A stretch of DNA of 21,082 nucleotides from a virus (IMGVR_UViG_3300005253_001731:416-21497); one strand, 5' to 3'. Positions 1 through 7,673 are shown, counted from the stretch's first letter. Notes: generated by a model not told the origin, from the letters alone. Program-made: numbers and translations.

Positions 1-72
1 GGGCGTGCGACAGTTGGAGCAGGACAGGTAAGTGCCTAGCATATGTATGTGTCCGCATCCAGGTGCGTACAT
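1..72 (-). CDS. partial small zinc-ribbon-like protein (cut by window edge)
   Basis: The start codon shares one base with the TAA stop of the upstream gene (TAATG arrangement) and follows a good ribosome site, AGGAGA. The 24 visible codons read MYAPGCGHIHMLG and so on, with Cys6, His8, His10 and a CSNC pair at 18-21. This spacing suggests a single zinc-binding knuckle like those in many neighbouring small proteins. The gene continues beyond base 1, so length and function are unknown. The coupling and strong ribosome site make it a likely real gene. It is the last visible member of the leftward cluster. Confidence 0.5.
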   Translation of the reverse strand, partial: MYAPGCGHIHMLGTYLSCSNCRTP

Positions 73-254
73 TAGGAGTCTCCTCTCTTGGGTATAGGCT
101 CACGGCTCTCACGCTCAAGCAGGACACCGAATGTATCCGTGGCCTCATCTGCGGCCATTGCGAAATGTGTAGGCACCCAACCCGTCTTGGCGAGGACGTT
201 CAGGTTGCTGGTGACATCCTTCCGTTCTCCGTTGACTATTGTGTACTCCTTCAT
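72..254 (-). CDS. DUF4177-like small protein, 60 aa
   Basis: I chose the ATG at 254 because it follows a GAGAGGAGAGA ribosome site. The longer frame starting at 278 has no such signal and would read through that site. The protein begins MKEYTIVNGE and has the pattern LNxLAKTGW near residues 18-26, then a hydrophobic FGVLLER strand. That resembles the short DUF4177 fold (Tyr-rich strand, LNxLgxxGW helix, final strand), whose function is unknown. It lies one base after the stop of the 145-residue upstream gene and its own stop overlaps the next start, so the three are probably co-translated. The family assignment rests on pattern only. Confidence 0.6.
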   Translation of the reverse strand: MKEYTIVNGERKDVTSNLNVLAKTGWVPTHFAMAADEATDTFGVLLERESREPIPKRGDS

Positions 255-255
255 C

Positions 256-693
256 TCAGTCTCTCCTCTCAGGTACACACGCCGATGTACAAGGCCCGTC
301 GTGACTGCCTACTTCACACCTTGGGTCTGGTTGAGTTTGTTCACATATACTGTCCTCTGTGGCAGTATCCGCCATATACTGTTCAAGATCAGCCGAAGGC
401 TCTACTACGTAGCCTACAGGTCCATCGTCCAGCCCGCAGGCTGCTAGGAACCACTTACGGTTGAAGCCACCTTCGTACTCATGCAATCCTTCGCCCGCAT
501 AGAAAATAGAGTGTTCAACATCACACGTTCGGCAGAAGGGCGGGTTGTCGGCGGCGAAGAGGTCAATGAAGCTCTTAGCTACCCAAGCAAGCCATTGCAT
601 CCGCTCCCGCTCGTTGTCCACCCTTGCCGCTGTTGTATGGTAGGACAGGACACGGGCCACGTCCTCGTAATGCTCCTTGGTGTACCTACTCAC
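256..693 (-). CDS. conserved phage protein of unknown function, 145 aa
   Basis: It starts with GTG at 693 behind GAGGCG and overlaps the end of the upstream gene by 8 bases. The N-terminus, SRYTKEHYEDVARVL, and the central FNRKWFLAACGL match a recurrent type of small actinobacteriophage protein that I know only as hypothetical. A CRTC pair at about 54-57 and several Cys and His residues in the C-terminal 35 residues could bind metal. No enzyme motif is visible. The expected role is early or accessory, given its place in the leftward small-gene cluster. I am confident it is a gene, not about its function. Confidence 0.75.
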   Translation of the reverse strand: MSRYTKEHYEDVARVLSYHTTAARVDNERERMQWLAWVAKSFIDLFAADNPPFCRTCDVEHSIFYAGEGLHEYEGGFNRKWFLAACGLDDGPVGYVVEPSADLEQYMADTATEDSICEQTQPDPRCEVGSHDGPCTSACVPERRD

Positions 694-1117
694 GGTACGC
701 CTCGATTGGCAACTCAGGGAACCAGCGGTTGGCCTGCTTGCGGCTCAGCTTGCAGCCGCGCCTTATAGTCCACTCCACGCAGTCCTCGCTCCTCATGCCA
801 TCGTCTGCTCCTATGTAGGCAGCCCAATCAGCGATGGCGCCTTCGACAGCCGCAATGCAGATGCCTGCACCGTTGGCGTTCCAGTAGGAGTAGTTGAGGA
901 CGCGGAGGTGCTCCACTCCTCGAATGTATGGCAGACCTAGGCTTGGCTGAGAGGGAGGACGCTCAGGGTCCTCGGTCATCATCTCGCGGTCCTGTTCGAC
1001 ATCGCGCCGATGGTCAGCCTCTTGCTGCGCCTGCTCGGCATCGTACCGAGCGGCCTCCTCGGAGGCAATGGCGTCTTCGGGTCCTGGTCCTTTTGTATGT
1101 GATTTCTCACAAGGCAT
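686..1117 (-). CDS. hypothetical protein with Gln/Glu-rich N-terminal helix, 143 aa
   Basis: The start is set at the ATG at 1117 because GAGGAGG lies a proper distance upstream; the longer frame from 1135 would absorb that ribosome site. The first 60 residues are rich in Glu, Ala, Gln and Arg and look helical or disordered. The remaining 80 residues (LPYIRGVEHLRVLNYSYW, then AAVEGAIADWAAYIG) look folded. Cys occurs in a CVEW...RGCKL segment, but no full zinc site is clear. The stop overlaps the GTG of the downstream 145-residue gene. I recognise no family. A 12-base stretch inside it (922-933) recurs beside the leader element at 1904-1915. Confidence 0.65.
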   Translation of the reverse strand: MPCEKSHTKGPGPEDAIASEEAARYDAEQAQQEADHRRDVEQDREMMTEDPERPPSQPSLGLPYIRGVEHLRVLNYSYWNANGAGICIAAVEGAIADWAAYIGADDGMRSEDCVEWTIRRGCKLSRKQANRWFPELPIEAYRE

Positions 1118-1170
1118 GATTAACCTCCTCGTCAATGATTATTAGGTGTGCTCGATGTCCGCCGAACACC

Positions 1171-1329
1171 CTAGTCCCTTTCAGGCGGTATGAACCACTC
1201 GGCTACGGTGTCCCGGGCCTCATCGATGCCGGCCATGTAGCACTCACAGTCATCGAGGTGAGCGTCGAATAGCTCATCGCCGAGTAGACGGCCAAGCCTA
1301 TCATGTAGCCACACTATTAGCCTGTGCAT
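1171..1329 (-). CDS. small acidic hypothetical protein, 52 aa
   Basis: This short frame begins at an ATG that shares its A with the TGA stop of the gene before it (TGATG), a typical coupling arrangement. The product is MHRLIVWLHDRLGRLL followed by an acidic stretch with CEC at 28-30 and a WFIPPERD end. The first 16 residues form an amphipathic or weakly membrane-active helix. No family is recognised. Coupling, sensible composition and the filled gap between genes support it. A 50-base leader separates its end from the next gene start. Confidence 0.6.
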   Translation of the reverse strand: MHRLIVWLHDRLGRLLGDELFDAHLDDCECYMAGIDEARDTVAEWFIPPERD

Positions 1330-1649
1330 CAGTGACACCCTCCTCTATGACCAGGCGAGGCGGGCACCTCGTCTCGGCGCCCTTCGTCGTAATACTCCTT
1401 GTGCCGCATGAACACACCGTACCCGTCCACTGGACACGCCTCGTCGGGCTCACCGGGCTGGCAGATGCAGTGAGGTACATATAGGTCCTTCCATTGAAGC
1501 CCCTCTGCGACCTCGTACCTACCAGACTCGGCCAGGTAGACATACCGAGTCCCACAGGTCCCGCATGGAGGGTACGGCTGTGCCGGGCCAAGGTGGCGGC
1601 GTTGAGGAGCGTATGGTTCTATCCGGGTCCCGTCTTCAGGGCAGAACAT
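1329..1649 (-). CDS. Cys-rich zinc-binding hypothetical protein, 106 aa
   Basis: The ATG at 1649 overlaps the TGA of the upstream gene (TGATG) and is preceded by GAGGAA. The N-terminal 35 residues hold FCPEDG and PPCGTCGTRY, the two halves of a classic zinc ribbon. A second Cys group follows (CIC, then CPVDG). A nucleic-acid or protein-binding role is plausible for such ribbons, but no partner can be inferred. The C-terminus is basic and ends GCH. It sits in a run of three translationally coupled genes (70, 106 and 52 residues). Confidence 0.65.
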   Translation of the reverse strand: MFCPEDGTRIEPYAPQRRHLGPAQPYPPCGTCGTRYVYLAESGRYEVAEGLQWKDLYVPHCICQPGEPDEACPVDGYGVFMRHKEYYDEGRRDEVPASPGHRGGCH

Positions 1650-1861
1650 CAGCGATTCCTCGTCTCCGACGACGGGACTGGGTGACTGAGGGCCATGCCC
1701 CCCTTCTGCGCCATATCATCGGCCTTGGACTCGTATTGGGCCGCATCACCACCATCACCGTCACGCCGTCTACTAATGGCGCGAATCTCAAGGCGCAGTG
1801 CCTCAAGCATACAGCCGAGGCCGTACATCTGCTCCTCCTTGACTATGTCAGGCTCTTGCAT
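1649..1861 (-). CDS. hypothetical helical protein, 70 aa
   Basis: I used the ATG at 1861 behind AGAGAGGAGAA. An open frame extends upstream to 1999, but that stretch is the conserved leader element and has no better start. The protein begins MQEPDIVKEEQMYGLG, then LEALRLEIRAISRRRDGD, which looks like one long amphipathic helix with a charged, disordered tail. It resembles no family I know. It heads a coupled run with the 106- and 52-residue genes and is one of the genes carrying the repeated leader. Confidence 0.55.
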   Translation of the reverse strand: MQEPDIVKEEQMYGLGCMLEALRLEIRAISRRRDGDGGDAAQYESKADDMAQKGGMALSHPVPSSETRNR

Positions 1862-1867
1862 CCGCTT

Positions 1868-1904
1868 CTCCTCTCTACTAAACCGTCCAACTCCACCACC
1901 GAGG
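1868..1904 (-). promoter_or_regulatory. repeated 5'-leader element, copy A
   Basis: On the plus strand this holds the 14-base block TACTAAACCGTCCA (1876-1889), six variable bases and CCACCGAG (1896-1903). The same two blocks with the same six-base gap recur at copy B (3304-3331). The element ends 14 bases before the ATG at 1861 and merges with that gene's ribosome site. It could be a start-associated sequence, a protein-binding site or an RNA element; the sequence alone does not decide. Confidence 0.55.
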
Positions 1905-1988
1905 AATGTATGGCAAATAACAGGCGGGCCTCGCAACACCGAACTCTGAAGGCGTTGACTATGGGCCTCGGTGATGGAGTAGGCAGGT

Positions 1989-2336
1989 CTAGTCCTCAAA
2001 CAGCTTCACCTCGACTCCCTTCTTCCTTGCTATCCCTATCATGTTCGCTGTACCTCGGCTCCGCCTAATGTCATTATGGAACGCAAGCACGAGGTTGGGC
2101 CTTGCATCCAGCATCCACTTGTTCCGTATTGCGCCAGCGGCTCGGCCGAACTGCTCCCACTCAGCAGGGTACACCCTGACCTCAAGACCCATCCGTACGC
2201 CGAGCACACCGGCTATGGTATCGGCTCCCTTGGCAGCGCCGTGTATGATGACGGTATCTGATGGTAGCCGCTCCAACTCTCGCTTAATTGCGGCCCAACC
2301 TATCCAGTGCCTGTCACCGCACACTATGACCTTCAA
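1989..2336 (-). CDS. YspA-like SLOG-family nucleotide-binding protein (DUF2493 type), 115 aa
   Basis: The start is TTG at 2336, ten bases after GGAGGT at the end of the upstream gene. The protein is a compact Rossmann-like fold: MKVIVCGDRHW at the N-terminus, VIIHGAAKGADTIA at 29-42, a VYPAEWEQFGRAAGAIRN segment at 56-71 and SRGTANMI at 93-100. These are the hallmark blocks of the YspA/DUF2493 branch of the SLOG superfamily, which binds nucleotide-derived ligands. The length is normal for a stand-alone domain. The reaction or ligand is unknown. In phages such proteins sit among accessory genes, as here. The family call is firm; the function is not. Confidence 0.85.
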   Translation of the reverse strand: MKVIVCGDRHWIGWAAIKRELERLPSDTVIIHGAAKGADTIAGVLGVRMGLEVRVYPAEWEQFGRAAGAIRNKWMLDARPNLVLAFHNDIRRSRGTANMIGIARKKGVEVKLFED

Positions 2337-2343
2337 CTAATGC

Positions 2344-2448
2344 CTACCTCCATCCTTTGCGCCACAAGTACCTATGGCAGCTAGAACAGTAGCCACCGAA
2401 CCTCTTGCGCCCATGACCACTATTGCATAACCAGTTGCGGCAGGACAT
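2344..2448 (-). CDS. mini zinc-finger protein, 34 aa
   Basis: A short frame between two solid genes, with GGGAGTAG upstream of its ATG and a stop eight bases before the next TTG. The product, MSCRNWLCNSGHGRKRF and onward, is strongly basic. It holds Cys3, Cys8, His12, Cys21, Cys24 and His25, enough for one zinc site. The many Arg and Lys residues suggest nucleic-acid contact, which is inference. Its coding end also supplies the ribosome site for the downstream SLOG gene. No known family is recognised. Confidence 0.6.
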   Translation of the reverse strand: MSCRNWLCNSGHGRKRFGGYCSSCHRYLWRKGWR

Positions 2449-2450
2449 GA

Positions 2451-2642
2451 CTACTCCCTCGACGTGTCCAACGCCATGACGGTGACGCTGATGGCGTGCG
2501 GGGGACCACCTGGGAACGCCGTCTGCTGCACGTACAGGGTGGTAACTGGCGGGTTCTCCTCGGCAGTCTCGTCGGCATCGTAGCGGTACGTCCGCTTCGT
2601 TGGCCTAGTGAACACGAGGGTCACTGTGATAATCTCAGGCAT
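2451..2642 (-). CDS. conserved small phage protein (TVTLxFxxxTKxTxRY family), 63 aa
   Basis: A strong AAAGGAGG site lies before the ATG at 2642. The protein MPEIITVTLVFTRPTKRTYRYD, followed by PPVTTLYVQQTAFPGG and a VTVMAL strand, matches a beta-strand-rich family widespread in actinobacteriophages and annotated only as hypothetical. The typical pattern is a TVTL strand, a TKxTxRY turn, then LYVQKxA. Length is typical. No catalytic residues are apparent. It is two bases from the 34-residue zinc protein downstream. Confidence 0.75.
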   Translation of the reverse strand: MPEIITVTLVFTRPTKRTYRYDADETAEENPPVTTLYVQQTAFPGGPPHAISVTVMALDTSRE

Positions 2643-2658
2643 CGCTGCCTCCTTTCGG

Positions 2659-2766
2659 CTAGTTCCTCTGCTGCTCCACTTTGGAGGCCAGCAGTATCCT
2701 CATGGCTTGGTTGCGCCGCTCCCTGCCGAGCCCACGCAGTAGCTTCTGCAACTCTTTGTAGGTCAT
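2659..2766 (-). CDS. small basic helical protein, 35 aa
   Basis: The ATG follows AGGAGTAAGT, with the ribosome site overlapping the stop region of the upstream membrane peptide. The product is MTYKELQKLLRGLGRERRNQ and on to a LLASKVEQQRN end: one amphipathic helix-turn-helix-like unit, strongly basic. It could bind nucleic acid or be a regulator, but nothing proves this. It fills the space between two supported genes exactly and has a proper start signal. Confidence 0.55.
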   Translation of the reverse strand: MTYKELQKLLRGLGRERRNQAMRILLASKVEQQRN

Positions 2767-2774
2767 ACTTACTC

Positions 2775-2882
2775 CTAGTGGATTGCTCCTACTAGGCTAA
2801 GGAAGACTCCGGCCAGAGCGCCAACCCCGACGACCGCCAAGAGAAATATCTGCCACTTCAGGCTAATATCCTTCGCGCTCAT
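2775..2882 (-). CDS. single-pass membrane peptide, 35 aa
   Basis: The start overlaps the stop of the upstream 54-residue gene (ATGA), so it is probably translated by re-initiation. After a short polar head (MSAKDISLKWQ) residues 12-34 (IFLLAVVGVGALAGVFLSLVGAI) form one hydrophobic helix long enough to span a membrane. There is no signal-peptidase site or lipobox. Phage peptides of this type can be holin-like, superinfection or envelope-acting factors; none can be chosen here. Confidence 0.6.
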   Translation of the reverse strand: MSAKDISLKWQIFLLAVVGVGALAGVFLSLVGAIH

Positions 2883-3043
2883 ACCGCCCTCTCCTTGTGG
2901 CACCATTCGCGTATCATCTCGGCCAGCTCCGCGATGCCCTTTGACTTGACCGTGAGCATCTCCGTGTTGTTCAGTTTGCGGCCGCCATCAGCCTCGAAGA
3001 ACTCCCGAACCACGGATACTGAGCCCTTGCCTTCGCAAGACAT
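2879..3043 (-). CDS. hypothetical protein, 54 aa
   Basis: The ATG at 3043 follows AGGAGGACGGTACA, an excellent ribosome site, and the stop overlaps the next start. The product runs MSCEGKGSVSVVREFFEADGG, then KLNNTEMLTVKSKGIAELAEMIREWCHKERAV. The second half is a predicted amphipathic helix. The initiation context GGTACAATG also occurs at the DUF2786 gene start (5182). I recognise no family. Coupling and start signal make it likely real. Confidence 0.6.
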   Translation of the reverse strand: MSCEGKGSVSVVREFFEADGGRKLNNTEMLTVKSKGIAELAEMIREWCHKERAV

Positions 3044-3050
3044 TGTACCG

Positions 3051-3090
3051 TCCTCCTACTACTCCGTCCGGTGCCGGCCCCAACGCCAAG
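3051..3090 (-). promoter_or_regulatory. repeated 5'-leader element, divergent copy D
   Basis: Plus-strand TACTACTCCGTCCG (3057-3070) aligns with the 14-base block of copies A and B, with ACTCCGTCC in place of AAACCGTCC. The second block is poorly kept (GCCCCAAC at 3077-3084). It lies 13 bases before the ATG at 3043, the same relative position as the other copies. It may be a diverged member; the match is weaker than A-C. Confidence 0.35.
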
Positions 3091-3124
3091 GGGGTGCAAG
3101 ACGTTAGGGCCAACGCTGGAGGGA

Positions 3125-3286
3125 CTAGGCCGCAAAGAGAGGACGTGTAGCGTTGCGGTAGGTGATCGGGTGGATCACCGCGAGATGATTTCGCCTGCAC
3201 TTGCACCGTCCCCAGTAACAACCTGTTTTGGGGTCTAGCTCTACTGATATGAGGCGCCCAGTCCATGCACACTTGACCTTTGCCAT
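3125..3286 (-). CDS. mini zinc-ribbon protein, 53 aa
   Basis: The ATG at 3286 has AGGAGGG upstream and lies just after leader copy B. The product begins MAKVKCAWTGRLISVELDP and contains Cys6, then CYWGRCKC at 23-30 and His34 and His39. This gives one plausible zinc site inside a small beta-ribbon, with a basic C-terminus (TYRNATRPLFAA). No family is recognised. An 80-base gap with leader copy D follows before the next gene. Frame, start signal and composition support a real gene. Confidence 0.6.
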   Translation of the reverse strand: MAKVKCAWTGRLISVELDPKTGCYWGRCKCRRNHLAVIHPITYRNATRPLFAA

Positions 3287-3293
3287 CGTGTCT

Positions 3294-3331
3294 TCCCTCC
3301 TGTTACTAAACCGTCCAGTGCTGCCACCGAG
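3294..3331 (-). promoter_or_regulatory. repeated 5'-leader element, copy B
   Basis: Contains plus-strand TACTAAACCGTCCA at 3304-3317, a six-base gap and CCACCGAG at 3324-3331, identical in both blocks and in spacing to copy A 1.4 kb away. It ends 17 bases before the ATG at 3286. The 117-base stretch from 3287 to 3403 has no other convincing gene. Confidence 0.55.
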
Positions 3332-3403
3332 TACCCGTCCGAGGCTCCACTCACCACAACTACCAGGGCTCGGCAGCAGCGCGGGAAGGTCTAGCCCACC
3401 CAG

Positions 3404-3568
3404 TCACCGTGCTTCGGTGCCTAGACGCTTCACTGTTTGGATAGCCTCGTCTTGGCTATTGCAGGGTATCAATGCCACCTGCGAAAGGTAAGGCTCAGCT
3501 ACCCAGGCAGAAGGCGTCTTATACACCCTACCTAGGTACCTGCCATTTGGTCCTTCAACTCTTTCCAT
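3404..3568 (-). CDS. hypothetical protein, 54 aa
   Basis: The ATG at 3568 is preceded by GAGGGGAG. The product MERVEGPNGRYLGRVYKTPS, then AWVAEPYLSQVALIPCNSQDEAIQTVKRLGTEAR has a strand-strand-helix outline. The EAIQTVKRL helix at the end is like the last helix of small alpha/beta folds. No catalytic or metal-binding pattern is visible. It sits 15 bases after the 87-residue gene and before a non-coding leader. The function is unknown. Confidence 0.6.
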   Translation of the reverse strand: MERVEGPNGRYLGRVYKTPSAWVAEPYLSQVALIPCNSQDEAIQTVKRLGTEAR

Positions 3569-3583
3569 TGACTCGACTCCCCT

Positions 3584-3847
3584 CTAATCCTCGGTCTTAG
3601 TGTCGGGTTCACAGACCTCACAAGCTGAGGCCACAAACTCCGTCCTCACCTCACCGTGACGGTCTAGCTCCTGTCGAACCTCGTCCCAGTTGAGTTGTAT
3701 CACCTTTGGCTTGGAATGGCCACACCGGCAGGTGAGCGTCATGGTAGGTGGGTAGTTCTCCTCAACCCACATTATGCTGGCGTTGAGGTCATCTCGCACC
3801 TTGTCGTACTCAGCTAACTTGGCTCGGTATTCCTCAGTCTGCATCAC
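3584..3847 (-). CDS. hypothetical protein with CxC...CxxC metal-binding pattern, 87 aa
   Basis: Two adjacent start codons are possible: GTG at 3847, nine bases after a full AGGAGGTGAT ribosome site, or ATG at 3844, twelve bases after it. The protein starts with a helical segment (QTEEYRAKLAEYDKVRDDLN), then TLTCRCGHSKPKVI at about 38-51 and a CEVC pair near residue 76. CRCGH plus CEVC make a split zinc ribbon. The acidic end (EPDTKTED) is probably disordered. No known family; likely a real early gene. Confidence 0.65.
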   Translation of the reverse strand: MMQTEEYRAKLAEYDKVRDDLNASIMWVEENYPPTMTLTCRCGHSKPKVIQLNWDEVRQELDRHGEVRTEFVASACEVCEPDTKTED

Positions 3848-3879
3848 TTAGTATCACCTCCTCACACTGATACTGATGA

Positions 3880-4080
3880 TTAGGTGCTGCGCAGTAGTGC
3901 GGTTGCCCTACAACGCTCACAGGCTTGGCGGGTACGAGGTGTAAAGCTGACAGCGGACGTAAGTGCTCCTACTCTCGCCGTACCTGCCTTTATCATCTTT
4001 GTGATATGCTCGTGATCGGCACAGTCGAGGCACTGAACGTGCCTGACTCCGCCTACGAACAGTTCTAGAAACTTCTTCAT
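3880..4080 (-). CDS. small zinc-ribbon-like protein, 66 aa
   Basis: The ATG follows GAGAGGAGA and leader copy C. The protein begins MKKFLELFVGGVRHVQ, then CLDCADHEH at 17-25, a basic middle and CERC near 55-58. Two CxxC pairs about 35 residues apart are the usual ligand layout of a zinc ribbon. The C-terminus is basic (RATALLRST). Function unknown; DNA, RNA or protein binding are all open. A 32-base gap with the strong ribosome site of the next gene follows. Confidence 0.65.
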   Translation of the reverse strand: MKKFLELFVGGVRHVQCLDCADHEHITKMIKAGTARVGALTSAVSFTPRTRQACERCRATALLRST

Positions 4081-4090
4081 CGTGCTGCTA

Positions 4091-4128
4091 TCTCCTCTCT
4101 ACTGTTCGGCTCAGCGCCGCCACCAAGG
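4091..4128 (-). promoter_or_regulatory. repeated 5'-leader element, copy C
   Basis: Plus-strand TACTGTTCGGCTCA (4100-4113), six bases, then CCACCAAG (4120-4127). Block lengths and the six-base gap match copies A and B while the first block has diverged. It lies 19 bases before the ATG at 4080. The rest of 4081-4205 shows no gene that I can support. Confidence 0.45.
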
Positions 4129-4205
4129 AACCACGGTGCGCAGCCATGTTCGGCATCCTAGGCACTGCAAGTACCGCCTCAGCAGCGGCGCTCAACCGAC
4201 CAGCC

Positions 4206-4412
4206 TCATGACATCCTCTCCAATCTTCTACGGAGGCGCTGTTGAGGAGTCAGCAACGTGTCCGCTAGCTGTGCATCTATGAATTGGCGTAAGCCATGTG
4301 TATCCTCTGTCTGAGGGTAGCTTGCTAGCTGTTGCCTCGTGCGCCGAAGGCGAGCAGTAGCCCGTTGCCAATCTTCGTCCTCCCAGAGGCGTCCCGCGGT
4401 CAGTTTACTCAC
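4206..4412 (-). CDS. small basic helical hypothetical protein, 68 aa
   Basis: It starts with GTG at 4412, with a modest GAGG about nine bases upstream inside the end of the preceding short gene. The product is almost entirely helical and rich in Arg, Gln and Leu: DWQRATARLRRTRQQLASY, then GLRQFIDAQLADTLLTPQQRLRRRLERMS. This could be a small DNA-binding or coiled-coil protein. No family is recognised. The weaker start signal lowers certainty compared with its neighbours. Confidence 0.5.
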   Translation of the reverse strand: MSKLTAGRLWEDEDWQRATARLRRTRQQLASYPQTEDTHGLRQFIDAQLADTLLTPQQRLRRRLERMS

Positions 4413-4421
4413 ACTACAGCC

Positions 4422-4496
4422 TCAACTAGGCGCGAACGTCACCATGAACACGACCACTGCCGTCACGAACACTATGTAACCGATTGCGTTCAGCAT
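4422..4496 (-). CDS. possible 24-aa membrane peptide
   Basis: The ATG shares its A with the TAA stop of the DUF2786 gene (TAATG), so it could be translated by re-initiation. The product MLNAIGYIVFVTAVVVFMVTF, then APS, is a single hydrophobic helix with no charged residue. It may be a membrane-inserting peptide. Such a short frame could arise by chance. The coupling and the pure transmembrane composition are the only support. Confidence 0.4.
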   Translation of the reverse strand: MLNAIGYIVFVTAVVVFMVTFAPS

Positions 4497-5182
4497 TACC
4501 TTACCTGCCTCTTCTCCGGCATGATGGACACCGAATCGCCAGCGCCCACACCGGCATTGTACGCTCCGCCATGCACGTAGAACCTGCGCCCGTTCCGCAA
4601 ACTCGGGTAGCGCTCGGTGATGAAGTCGGTGTTCTCCTCGTCGAACGTCACAACCAATGCACGGACGTTCTCCGAGACGCCATCATCGTCCGCTCGTTGC
4701 TGCCTGAGGCGCTCGTCGAGTCTCTGCATGACGCCTCGAATGAAACTCTCCCGCCAATCATTCCTACTGACCCCGTCCGTCCGACCAAGGAACTCCCTTG
4801 CGTCCCAATCGGTGCTCGCAAGACCTGAGATTTGCCCTATCAGCCACAAGGACAACTGGTGGACAACCTTGACGTTGTAAGACCTTCCAATGATGGACAA
4901 CTGGCCCGTGTGCAGGATTACGACCCGACAGTAGTTGTTGCTACCTATCACCGACACCAGTGTCGGTATCCAGCGTTGCCTTGTCAGCCCATCAAACAGG
5001 AACTCCTCAACGCCGCCACCTTGGCCGTCTCCCTCAACATCAGCCATCTCTAGGCCATGCTTGAGTAGGAGTGTGTGAGCCCGCTCCATAGCGAGACTTG
5101 CTTCGGCCTCGGTAGCTCCACCATCCTGAGCCAGACGTAGCAAGGCCTGGAGCCGCTCCATGACCTTATCGTCTACGTCCAT
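4496..5182 (-). CDS. DUF2786 domain-containing protein, 228 aa
   Basis: The start is the ATG at 5182 in the context GAGGATGGCGGTACA. An upstream ATG at 5236 adds only a poor 18-residue extension. Residues 1-50 (MDVDDKVMERLQALLRLAQD, then ATEAEASLAMERAHTLLLKHGLEMADVE) are a clear DUF2786 helical pair. The remaining 170 residues, with WIPTLVSVIGSNNYCRVV, then a WRESFIRGVMQRLDERL helix and FYVHGGAYNAGVGAG near the end, match the usual C-terminal partner region of phage DUF2786 proteins. Biochemical function is unknown. It is the first gene after the leftward promoter and so the likely first early product. Confidence 0.85.
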   Translation of the reverse strand: MDVDDKVMERLQALLRLAQDGGATEAEASLAMERAHTLLLKHGLEMADVEGDGQGGGVEEFLFDGLTRQRWIPTLVSVIGSNNYCRVVILHTGQLSIIGRSYNVKVVHQLSLWLIGQISGLASTDWDAREFLGRTDGVSRNDWRESFIRGVMQRLDERLRQQRADDDGVSENVRALVVTFDEENTDFITERYPSLRNGRRFYVHGGAYNAGVGAGDSVSIMPEKRQVR

Positions 5183-5261
5183 TGTACCGCCATCCTCTTG
5201 CCATCCTTTCTGCTGGCCGTGCCCGACCATACTCACACGGCTCTCAGCGACCTACATATAC

Positions 5262-5291
5262 ATTATACACTAGGTAGCGTGACGTTGTCAA
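5262..5291 (-). promoter_or_regulatory. leftward sigma-70 promoter for the small-gene cluster
   Basis: Reading the minus strand, TTGACA (5291-5286) is followed by 18 bases and a perfect TATAAT (5267-5262). Transcription would start near 5255 and reach the DUF2786 gene at 5182. A second GCTTGACA lies 15 bases further upstream (tandem TGTCAAGC on the plus strand at 5286-5293 and 5301-5308), possibly a repeated activator or repressor site. Confidence 0.8.
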
Positions 5292-6405: not shown

Positions 6406-6564
6406 CCGCGCTGCGAATAGAGATAGTATGCCTCGTGGTGATGCTAACAGCCGAAGTAAGTAGACCCTAACACTCACTCTCAGGCACCCCATGCCCCCCT
6501 TGCATAGGTTTGCATAGCCTTGGAGCTTAGGCATCGGGCGCGACCCTGTATAGGCTGGGTAACC

Positions 6565-7510: not shown

Positions 7511-7550
7511 AATACTGACCTCCTAACTGGGTGTACACTCTACGAGTAGT

Positions 7551-7579
7551 AGTATATCACAGGGGGTCACTTTTGTCAA
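7551..7579 (-). promoter_or_regulatory. leftward sigma-70 promoter
   Basis: On the minus strand TTGACA (7579-7574), a 17-base spacer and TATACT (7556-7551). The spacer contains one copy of the GGGGTCACTT repeat, so a repressor bound there would block this promoter. It drives the operon of the 166-, 62- and 54-residue genes. Confidence 0.75.
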
Positions 7580-7673
7580 TGGCTGACATGTATAAGCGGA
7601 TTAGCATATCCAACTGACTCCCCCATACTTACTACTACTTAGTAGTCTACACGGCTTTATGGGGTCACTTGTG
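7563..7673. promoter_or_regulatory. operator-like repeats between divergent promoters
   Basis: GGGGTCACTTTTG (7563-7575) and GGGGTCACTTGTG (7661-7673) differ by one base and lie 98 bases apart. The first overlaps the leftward promoter. Between them ACTACTTAGTAGT (7634-7646) is a perfect palindrome around a central T. These are likely regulator sites. Nothing else is seen in 7580-7747. Confidence 0.45.

Follow-up and report, generated by a model that had tools for sequence, protein, structure and literature searches.

A family of long hairpins lies between small genes of a phage operon, and the hairpins most likely act as RNA processing or mRNA-stabilizing signals akin to the RNase III sites of phage T7. 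We give this functional reading a probability of about one half. It grew out of a repeated two-block motif that a first-pass annotation had described upstream of several small genes in the window, the 21.1-kb stretch of DNA analyzed here, which is part of a 21.5-kb record of an uncultivated virus. Comparison with related sequences indicates that each copy of the repeated motif forms the 3' arm of a conserved cis-acting intercistronic RNA hairpin. On the minus strand, one block makes up the lower portion of this arm and the other the upper portion, so that what had been noted was half of the element; the conserved unit is both arms together and not the motif alone.

Hairpins in the leftward operon

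The four copies of the motif belong to the four best hairpins on the minus strand of the window. In an ungapped scan of the whole window, the four hairpins of Table 1 (A, B, D and E) took the top four places, with scores of 52, 52, 47 and 47, and the next candidate scored 38.5. Each has an imperfect stem of about 27 bp and a loop of 18-63 nt, for a total of 72-117 nt. Folding z-scores were -2.8 to -4.2 on the minus strand and weaker on the plus strand.

The motif copies described earlier were recovered, and neither the window nor the full 21.5-kb record yielded any other. Those at 1876 and 3304 are identical (TACTAAACCGTCCA-N6-CCACCGAG), with 0 expected in shuffled sequences and no further match in the window at up to three mismatches. 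A repeat search joined 4091-4130, around the diverged copy at 4100, to the family, and a covariance model scored 4101-4204 at 66 bits; the weaker copy at 3057 was scored at 53 bits (3058-3129). Distances from copy to start codon agreed with the 13-19 nt given before: 14 nt from 1876 to 1861, 17 nt from 3304 to 3286, 19 nt from 4100 to 4080, and 13 nt from 3057 to 3043. The expectation that copies would be confined to gene starts and conserved in related phages also held when we examined relatives.

Table 1. Features of the leftward operon in the window (window coordinates).
Feature	Position	Strand	Details
Promoter, sigma-70 type	5262-5291	-	perfect TTGACA-18-TATAAT; start of leftward small-gene operon
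Hairpin A, 117 nt	1877-1993	-	5' arm 1967-1993, loop 1904-1966, 3' arm 1877-1903 (copy at 1876); 63.9 bits; folding z -4.2
Stop before A	1989-1991	-	TAG of SLOG-family gene (1989-2336), in 5' arm, stem pairs 3-5
Gene after A, 70 aa	1649-1861	-	ATG 1861; SD GAGAGGAG between; L003 ortholog 86% identical
'Empty' junction	2643-2661	-	...CTAG, then CCGAAAGGAGG; before MPEI gene
Hairpin E, 72 nt	3058-3129	-	5' arm 3103-3129, 3' arm 3058-3084 (weak copy at 3057); 53.1 bits; folding z -3.8
Stop before E	3125-3127	-	TAG of 53-aa gene 3125-3286, in 5' arm, stem pairs 3-5
Gene after E, 54 aa	2879-3043	-	ATG 3043; SD AGGAGG
Hairpin B, 91 nt	3305-3395	-	5' arm 3369-3395, 3' arm 3305-3331 (copy at 3304); 71.8 bits; folding z -2.8
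Stop before B	3404-3406	-	TGA of 54-aa gene 3404-3568, 8 nt before hairpin
Gene after B, 53 aa	3125-3286	-	ATG 3286; SD CAGGAGG
Hairpin D, 104 nt	4101-4204	-	5' arm 4178-4204, 3' arm 4101-4127 (copy at 4100); 66.3 bits; folding z -3.9
Stop before D	4206-4208	-	TGA of 68-aa gene 4206-4412, immediately before hairpin
Gene after D, 66 aa	3880-4080	-	ATG 4080; SD GAGAGGAG

The hairpins lie in an operon whose first gene, encoding a DUF2786 protein, follows a perfect sigma-70-type promoter, and most related contigs contain exactly one occurrence of that promoter pattern. Genes in the window were called with a simple script, which misjudged a few short open reading frames inside hairpins. The terminase large subunit was recognized in the window. 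No near relative of the window was present among 50,697 phage records, and a scan of genome contigs for the portal-like protein, made in search of a host, gave no match. We gathered relatives with three types of search (motif, DUF2786 protein and portal-like protein), which added eight further lineages with such hairpins to the window's own, the ninth.

Conservation of pairing in RNA

The stems were conserved as paired RNA across the family. Those of 19 distinct members, each 27 bp, aligned without gaps; 88.7% of cells were paired, and both sides had changed at 17 of the 27 base pairs. The covariation score was 0.554; shuffles gave 0.261 ± 0.018, and slid controls did not exceed 0.19. When a paired position changed within a hairpin type, the pair was kept in 19 of 24 cases. 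Mismatches fell mostly at stem pairs 9 and 13, with fewer at pairs 5, 12, 15 and 27. The apical part of the hairpin was variable, and the spacer between arms ranged from 2 to 107 nt over the family.

Departures from perfect pairing pointed to RNA. On the transcript strand there were 85 G-U versus 18 A-C combinations (p 1e-11), in stems whose choice had partly used a scoring that favors G-U over other mismatches; the window hairpins alone, whose four copies were picked by sequence, gave 15 versus 3. This asymmetry, together with the weaker folding of the plus strand, rules out a plus-strand element or a symmetric DNA palindrome.

We built a covariance model (R1) from 17 members. It matched 22 members, which come from nine lineages and all lie in one leftward operon. 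Elsewhere in the same records, scanned in full, it found no further member, and more distant phages that carry DUF2786 gave no match. Since R1 was built from them, the bit scores of most members are not independent evidence; the independent evidence from R1 is the absence of matches elsewhere and the two members in contig L033.

The family resembles the extended start-associated sequences (ESAS) of Cluster K mycobacteriophages in layout but is not an ESAS. The ESAS is an imperfect inverted repeat of 17 bp with a variable spacer, mostly 4-13 bp, that precedes the Shine-Dalgarno sequence (SD) and start codon of some small non-structural genes in several copies per genome; Pope et al. (2011) found RNA pairing of the ESAS unsupported and considered RNA hairpins unlikely (PMC3203893). 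The comparison with start-associated sequences made in the first-pass annotation therefore stands for the layout, an inverted repeat with a variable spacer right before the SD and start of small genes, and fails for the pairing: here, unlike in the ESAS, covariation and G-U bias support RNA, and the arms are 27 bp with 2-107 nt between them. The 13-mer of the start-associated sequence (GGGATAGGAGCCC) had 0 matches in the window at up to two deviations. R1 had no match in phage Anaya, a source of ESAS repeats, or in T7.

This comparison also bears on the idea that a protein binds the inverted repeat as DNA, as proposed for the ESAS, which shares the imperfect repeat and spacer just before start codons (PMC3203893). 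The ESAS repeats of phage Anaya, counted in the same way, gave 6 G-U versus 5 A-C, in agreement with Pope et al. and against the strong skew found here, and a spacer of 2-107 nt would be hard for a dimeric DNA-binding protein to accommodate. DNA-level binding is disfavored, and we regard it as extremely unlikely.

Fit between stop codon and ribosome-binding site

The hairpin fills the gap between two genes. It usually ends 14-21 nt before the start codon with the SD in between, and an SD and start codon were found within 26 nt after the hairpin in 22 of the 23 tabulated members (compared to 8% of positions). In about 20 of the 25 tabulated hairpins, the upstream stop codon lay at an offset of -4 to +2. 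Where a type has CTAG at its 5' foot, the upstream gene usually terminates at the TAG of this tetramer (stem pairs 3-5); where it has CTGG, the gene terminates immediately before the stem. With the stop in or just before the 5' foot and the SD at the 3' foot, the hairpin constitutes the whole intercistronic gap. In the window, hairpins occur only at junctions with long gaps; most other junctions overlap or have short spacers.

CTAG ends many genes of the leftward operon (window 1-5290), whether or not a hairpin comes next, and may thus be a common junction sequence here.

Translational insulation or coupling is the main rival for the function. The hairpin could juxtapose the upstream stop and the downstream SD, or could halt the drift of terminating ribosomes, with the downstream gene starting independently. 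Most members have the stop in or adjoining the 5' foot and the SD adjoining the 3' foot, and, judging from the positions of the mismatches, the mismatch-rich lower half of the stem approximates what a ribosome at the stop codon would melt. One gene pair that overlaps (TAATG) in contig L042 is parted in L003 by a hairpin and an SD of its own. Against this, the SD is outside the stem in every member, and such a role does not need conservation of the arm sequence. We consider insulation rather unlikely as the principal function; it is compatible with a processing signal, and the two are not exclusive.

Hairpins and flanking genes

The hairpins were kept, and were present or absent, without regard to the genes around them. 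Hairpin B of the window and its counterpart in L003 are identical at 54 of 54 arm bases and at 34 of 37 loop bases, while the 200-nt flanks on both sides are unrelated, at background similarity. Type D occurs in six lineages. Its arms are close to identical in most of these, the loops are unrelated, and so are most of the genes downstream. The overlapping pair mentioned above encodes proteins beginning MAYVxPDYK and MFTLRQLL. The MSCxGKGSV gene (2879-3043) follows hairpin E in the window and only TAG followed by GAGG in L003. Hairpins also precede the L008 and L042 orthologs of the MPEI gene, which lacks one in the window. Hairpins are missing from many of the operon's junctions; there is not one per gene. 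From these sequence comparisons we propose that the hairpin is a modular spacer at several junctions of one operon, and that its gain, loss or retention does not depend on the genes beside it.

These patterns could also come from a site used mainly for recombination, either an attC-like single-strand hairpin or a linker of shared homology for cassette exchange. A conserved island between unrelated genes, presence or absence of the hairpin between the same genes, and a 3' loop part common to one D-type and one E-type hairpin are consistent with such a site. Like the family, integron attC sites are long imperfect hairpins between small genes, with structure kept above sequence, variable terminal loops and strand bias (PMC8946536). 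Unlike attC, the 27-bp stems are ungapped and lack extrahelical bases, hairpins do not follow every gene, and no integrase accompanies them. Tyrosine recombinase (PF00589) was found in 0 of 10 records, four of them 43-45 kb and some of them fragments, with controls positive in 14 of 14 genomes; an IntI could act in trans. Recombination as the main function is quite improbable. The earlier suggestion of a cassette or recombination boundary is supported as a pattern: hairpins are kept between unrelated flanks, and a given gene pair can have a hairpin in one phage and lack it in another.

The family also recalls the PeSLs of T4-type phages, reportedly described by Arbiol in 2010 as mobile regulatory cassettes. 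PeSLs are stem-loops that are repeated between small genes, are linked with module shuffling, as the hairpins here appear to be, and contain an early promoter. A search for promoters of the sigma-70 type found none at the hairpins.

The accessory regions of phages consist of very small genes in long, freely swapped series, and a newcomer must be supplied with the right stop codon, spacing and ribosome-binding signals. An RNA spacer that is conserved, carries its own stop and is placed before the SD would be a plug-in joint for gene swapping. We tentatively suggest, as a possibility that is more doubtful than the processing function, that the hairpin, with its 5'-foot stop and adjacent SD, is a mobile intercistronic RNA module that moves between junctions within one phage clade independently of genes, makes overlapping coupled pairs separately expressed, and serves as a joint for cassette exchange. 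A spacer of this kind, from a family for which comparative support is strong, would also help to decide whether an element marks mosaic junctions or whether these are simply what selection has left over.

Proposed function

Structure, conservation, strand and position of the hairpins, and their presence or absence, are direct observations, and a processing or stabilizing role would account for them as follows. The hairpin would be a double-stranded signal within the polycistronic mRNA of the leftward operon, presumably a place where host RNase III cuts or an obstacle to exonucleases. Neighboring small genes would thereby be converted to separate, stable messages, much as happens in phage T7 where RNase III acts between genes. 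No RNase III gene was encoded in the ten records searched.

The T7 sites (R0.3-R4.7) are likewise imperfect intercistronic hairpins that end about 20 nt before the next start, and the members of the family, as intercistronic imperfect RNA hairpins, reach the stem length of at least about 20 bp typical of that class. Applied to T7, our hairpin scan picked out 6414-6452, which precedes gene 1.3 by 22 nt and so has a position like that of the family. The two groups differ in that they have no sequence homology and that the hairpins here have longer stems, large loops and a stop codon often in the stem. The T7 sites are cleaved by RNase III, whereas the hairpins here are known from sequence.

Two observations count against this role. 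Many of the operon's junctions lack a hairpin, and the near-identity of arms between copies exceeds what generic double-stranded RNA needs, which suggests either a sequence-specific factor or recent exchange. In another reading, a phage protein, an antiterminator or translational regulator, would recognize the nascent RNA as at nut or put sites. Arms are near-identical between phages whose portal-like proteins are only about 58-60% identical to that of the window, with unrelated loops and flanks, and every copy lies within one operon headed by a perfect sigma-70 promoter. We identified no candidate RNA-binding partner, and to our knowledge repetition before several genes and a tight stop-to-SD fit are not typical of nut and put sites. 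Recognition of this kind is unlikely.

Other candidates and additional structures

The hairpins did not correspond to known elements. They are followed by SD sequences and have no terminator-like site, which excludes intrinsic terminators, in which a U run comes after a G+C-rich hairpin. Against Rfam, the window and L003 had no match up to E 1 and six relatives had none at gathering thresholds, and we therefore consider the family new. Blastn against known phages gave no meaningful match (one match of 28 nt in a tail gene, E 0.03), and we found no report of such an element in open-access literature text. Contigs that matched by chance lack such a hairpin: L028 and L029 matched an 18-mer from the D arm, and L032 and L034-L037 matched the E pattern.

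tRNA genes in the loops were rejected: ARAGORN found none, and the Rfam matches were sub-threshold chance matches only. Two D-type loops (L003:5112-5226 and L026:1362-1522, minus strand) contain T-arm-like stems (GAGGGTTCGACTCCCTC and CTGGGGTTAGAGTCCCCTA, respectively), as if from a decayed tRNA.

We noted three other kinds of inverted repeat. A perfect 24-nt inverted repeat (GGCCAAGGTGGCGGCGTTGAGGAG) occurs at window 1586-1609 and 5003-5026, in two different leftward genes 3.4 kb apart, and thus places complementary stretches within one transcript. Many relatives have a very long intergenic dyad before the terminase genes, with 28-53 bp per arm and TTGACA-like sequences in the loop (L006:4748-4900, L017:2672-2803, L025:5539-5670, L011:7384-7537 and window 7545-7639); this is perhaps an operator or a replication origin. 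Two more long hairpins, with stems unrelated to the family, lie directly before an SD and start codon in L024 (1302-1400 and 2084-2192). The first of these, with a wholly different sequence, matches hairpin A in its mismatch layout (8 bp, 2x2, 2 bp, 1x1, long stem).
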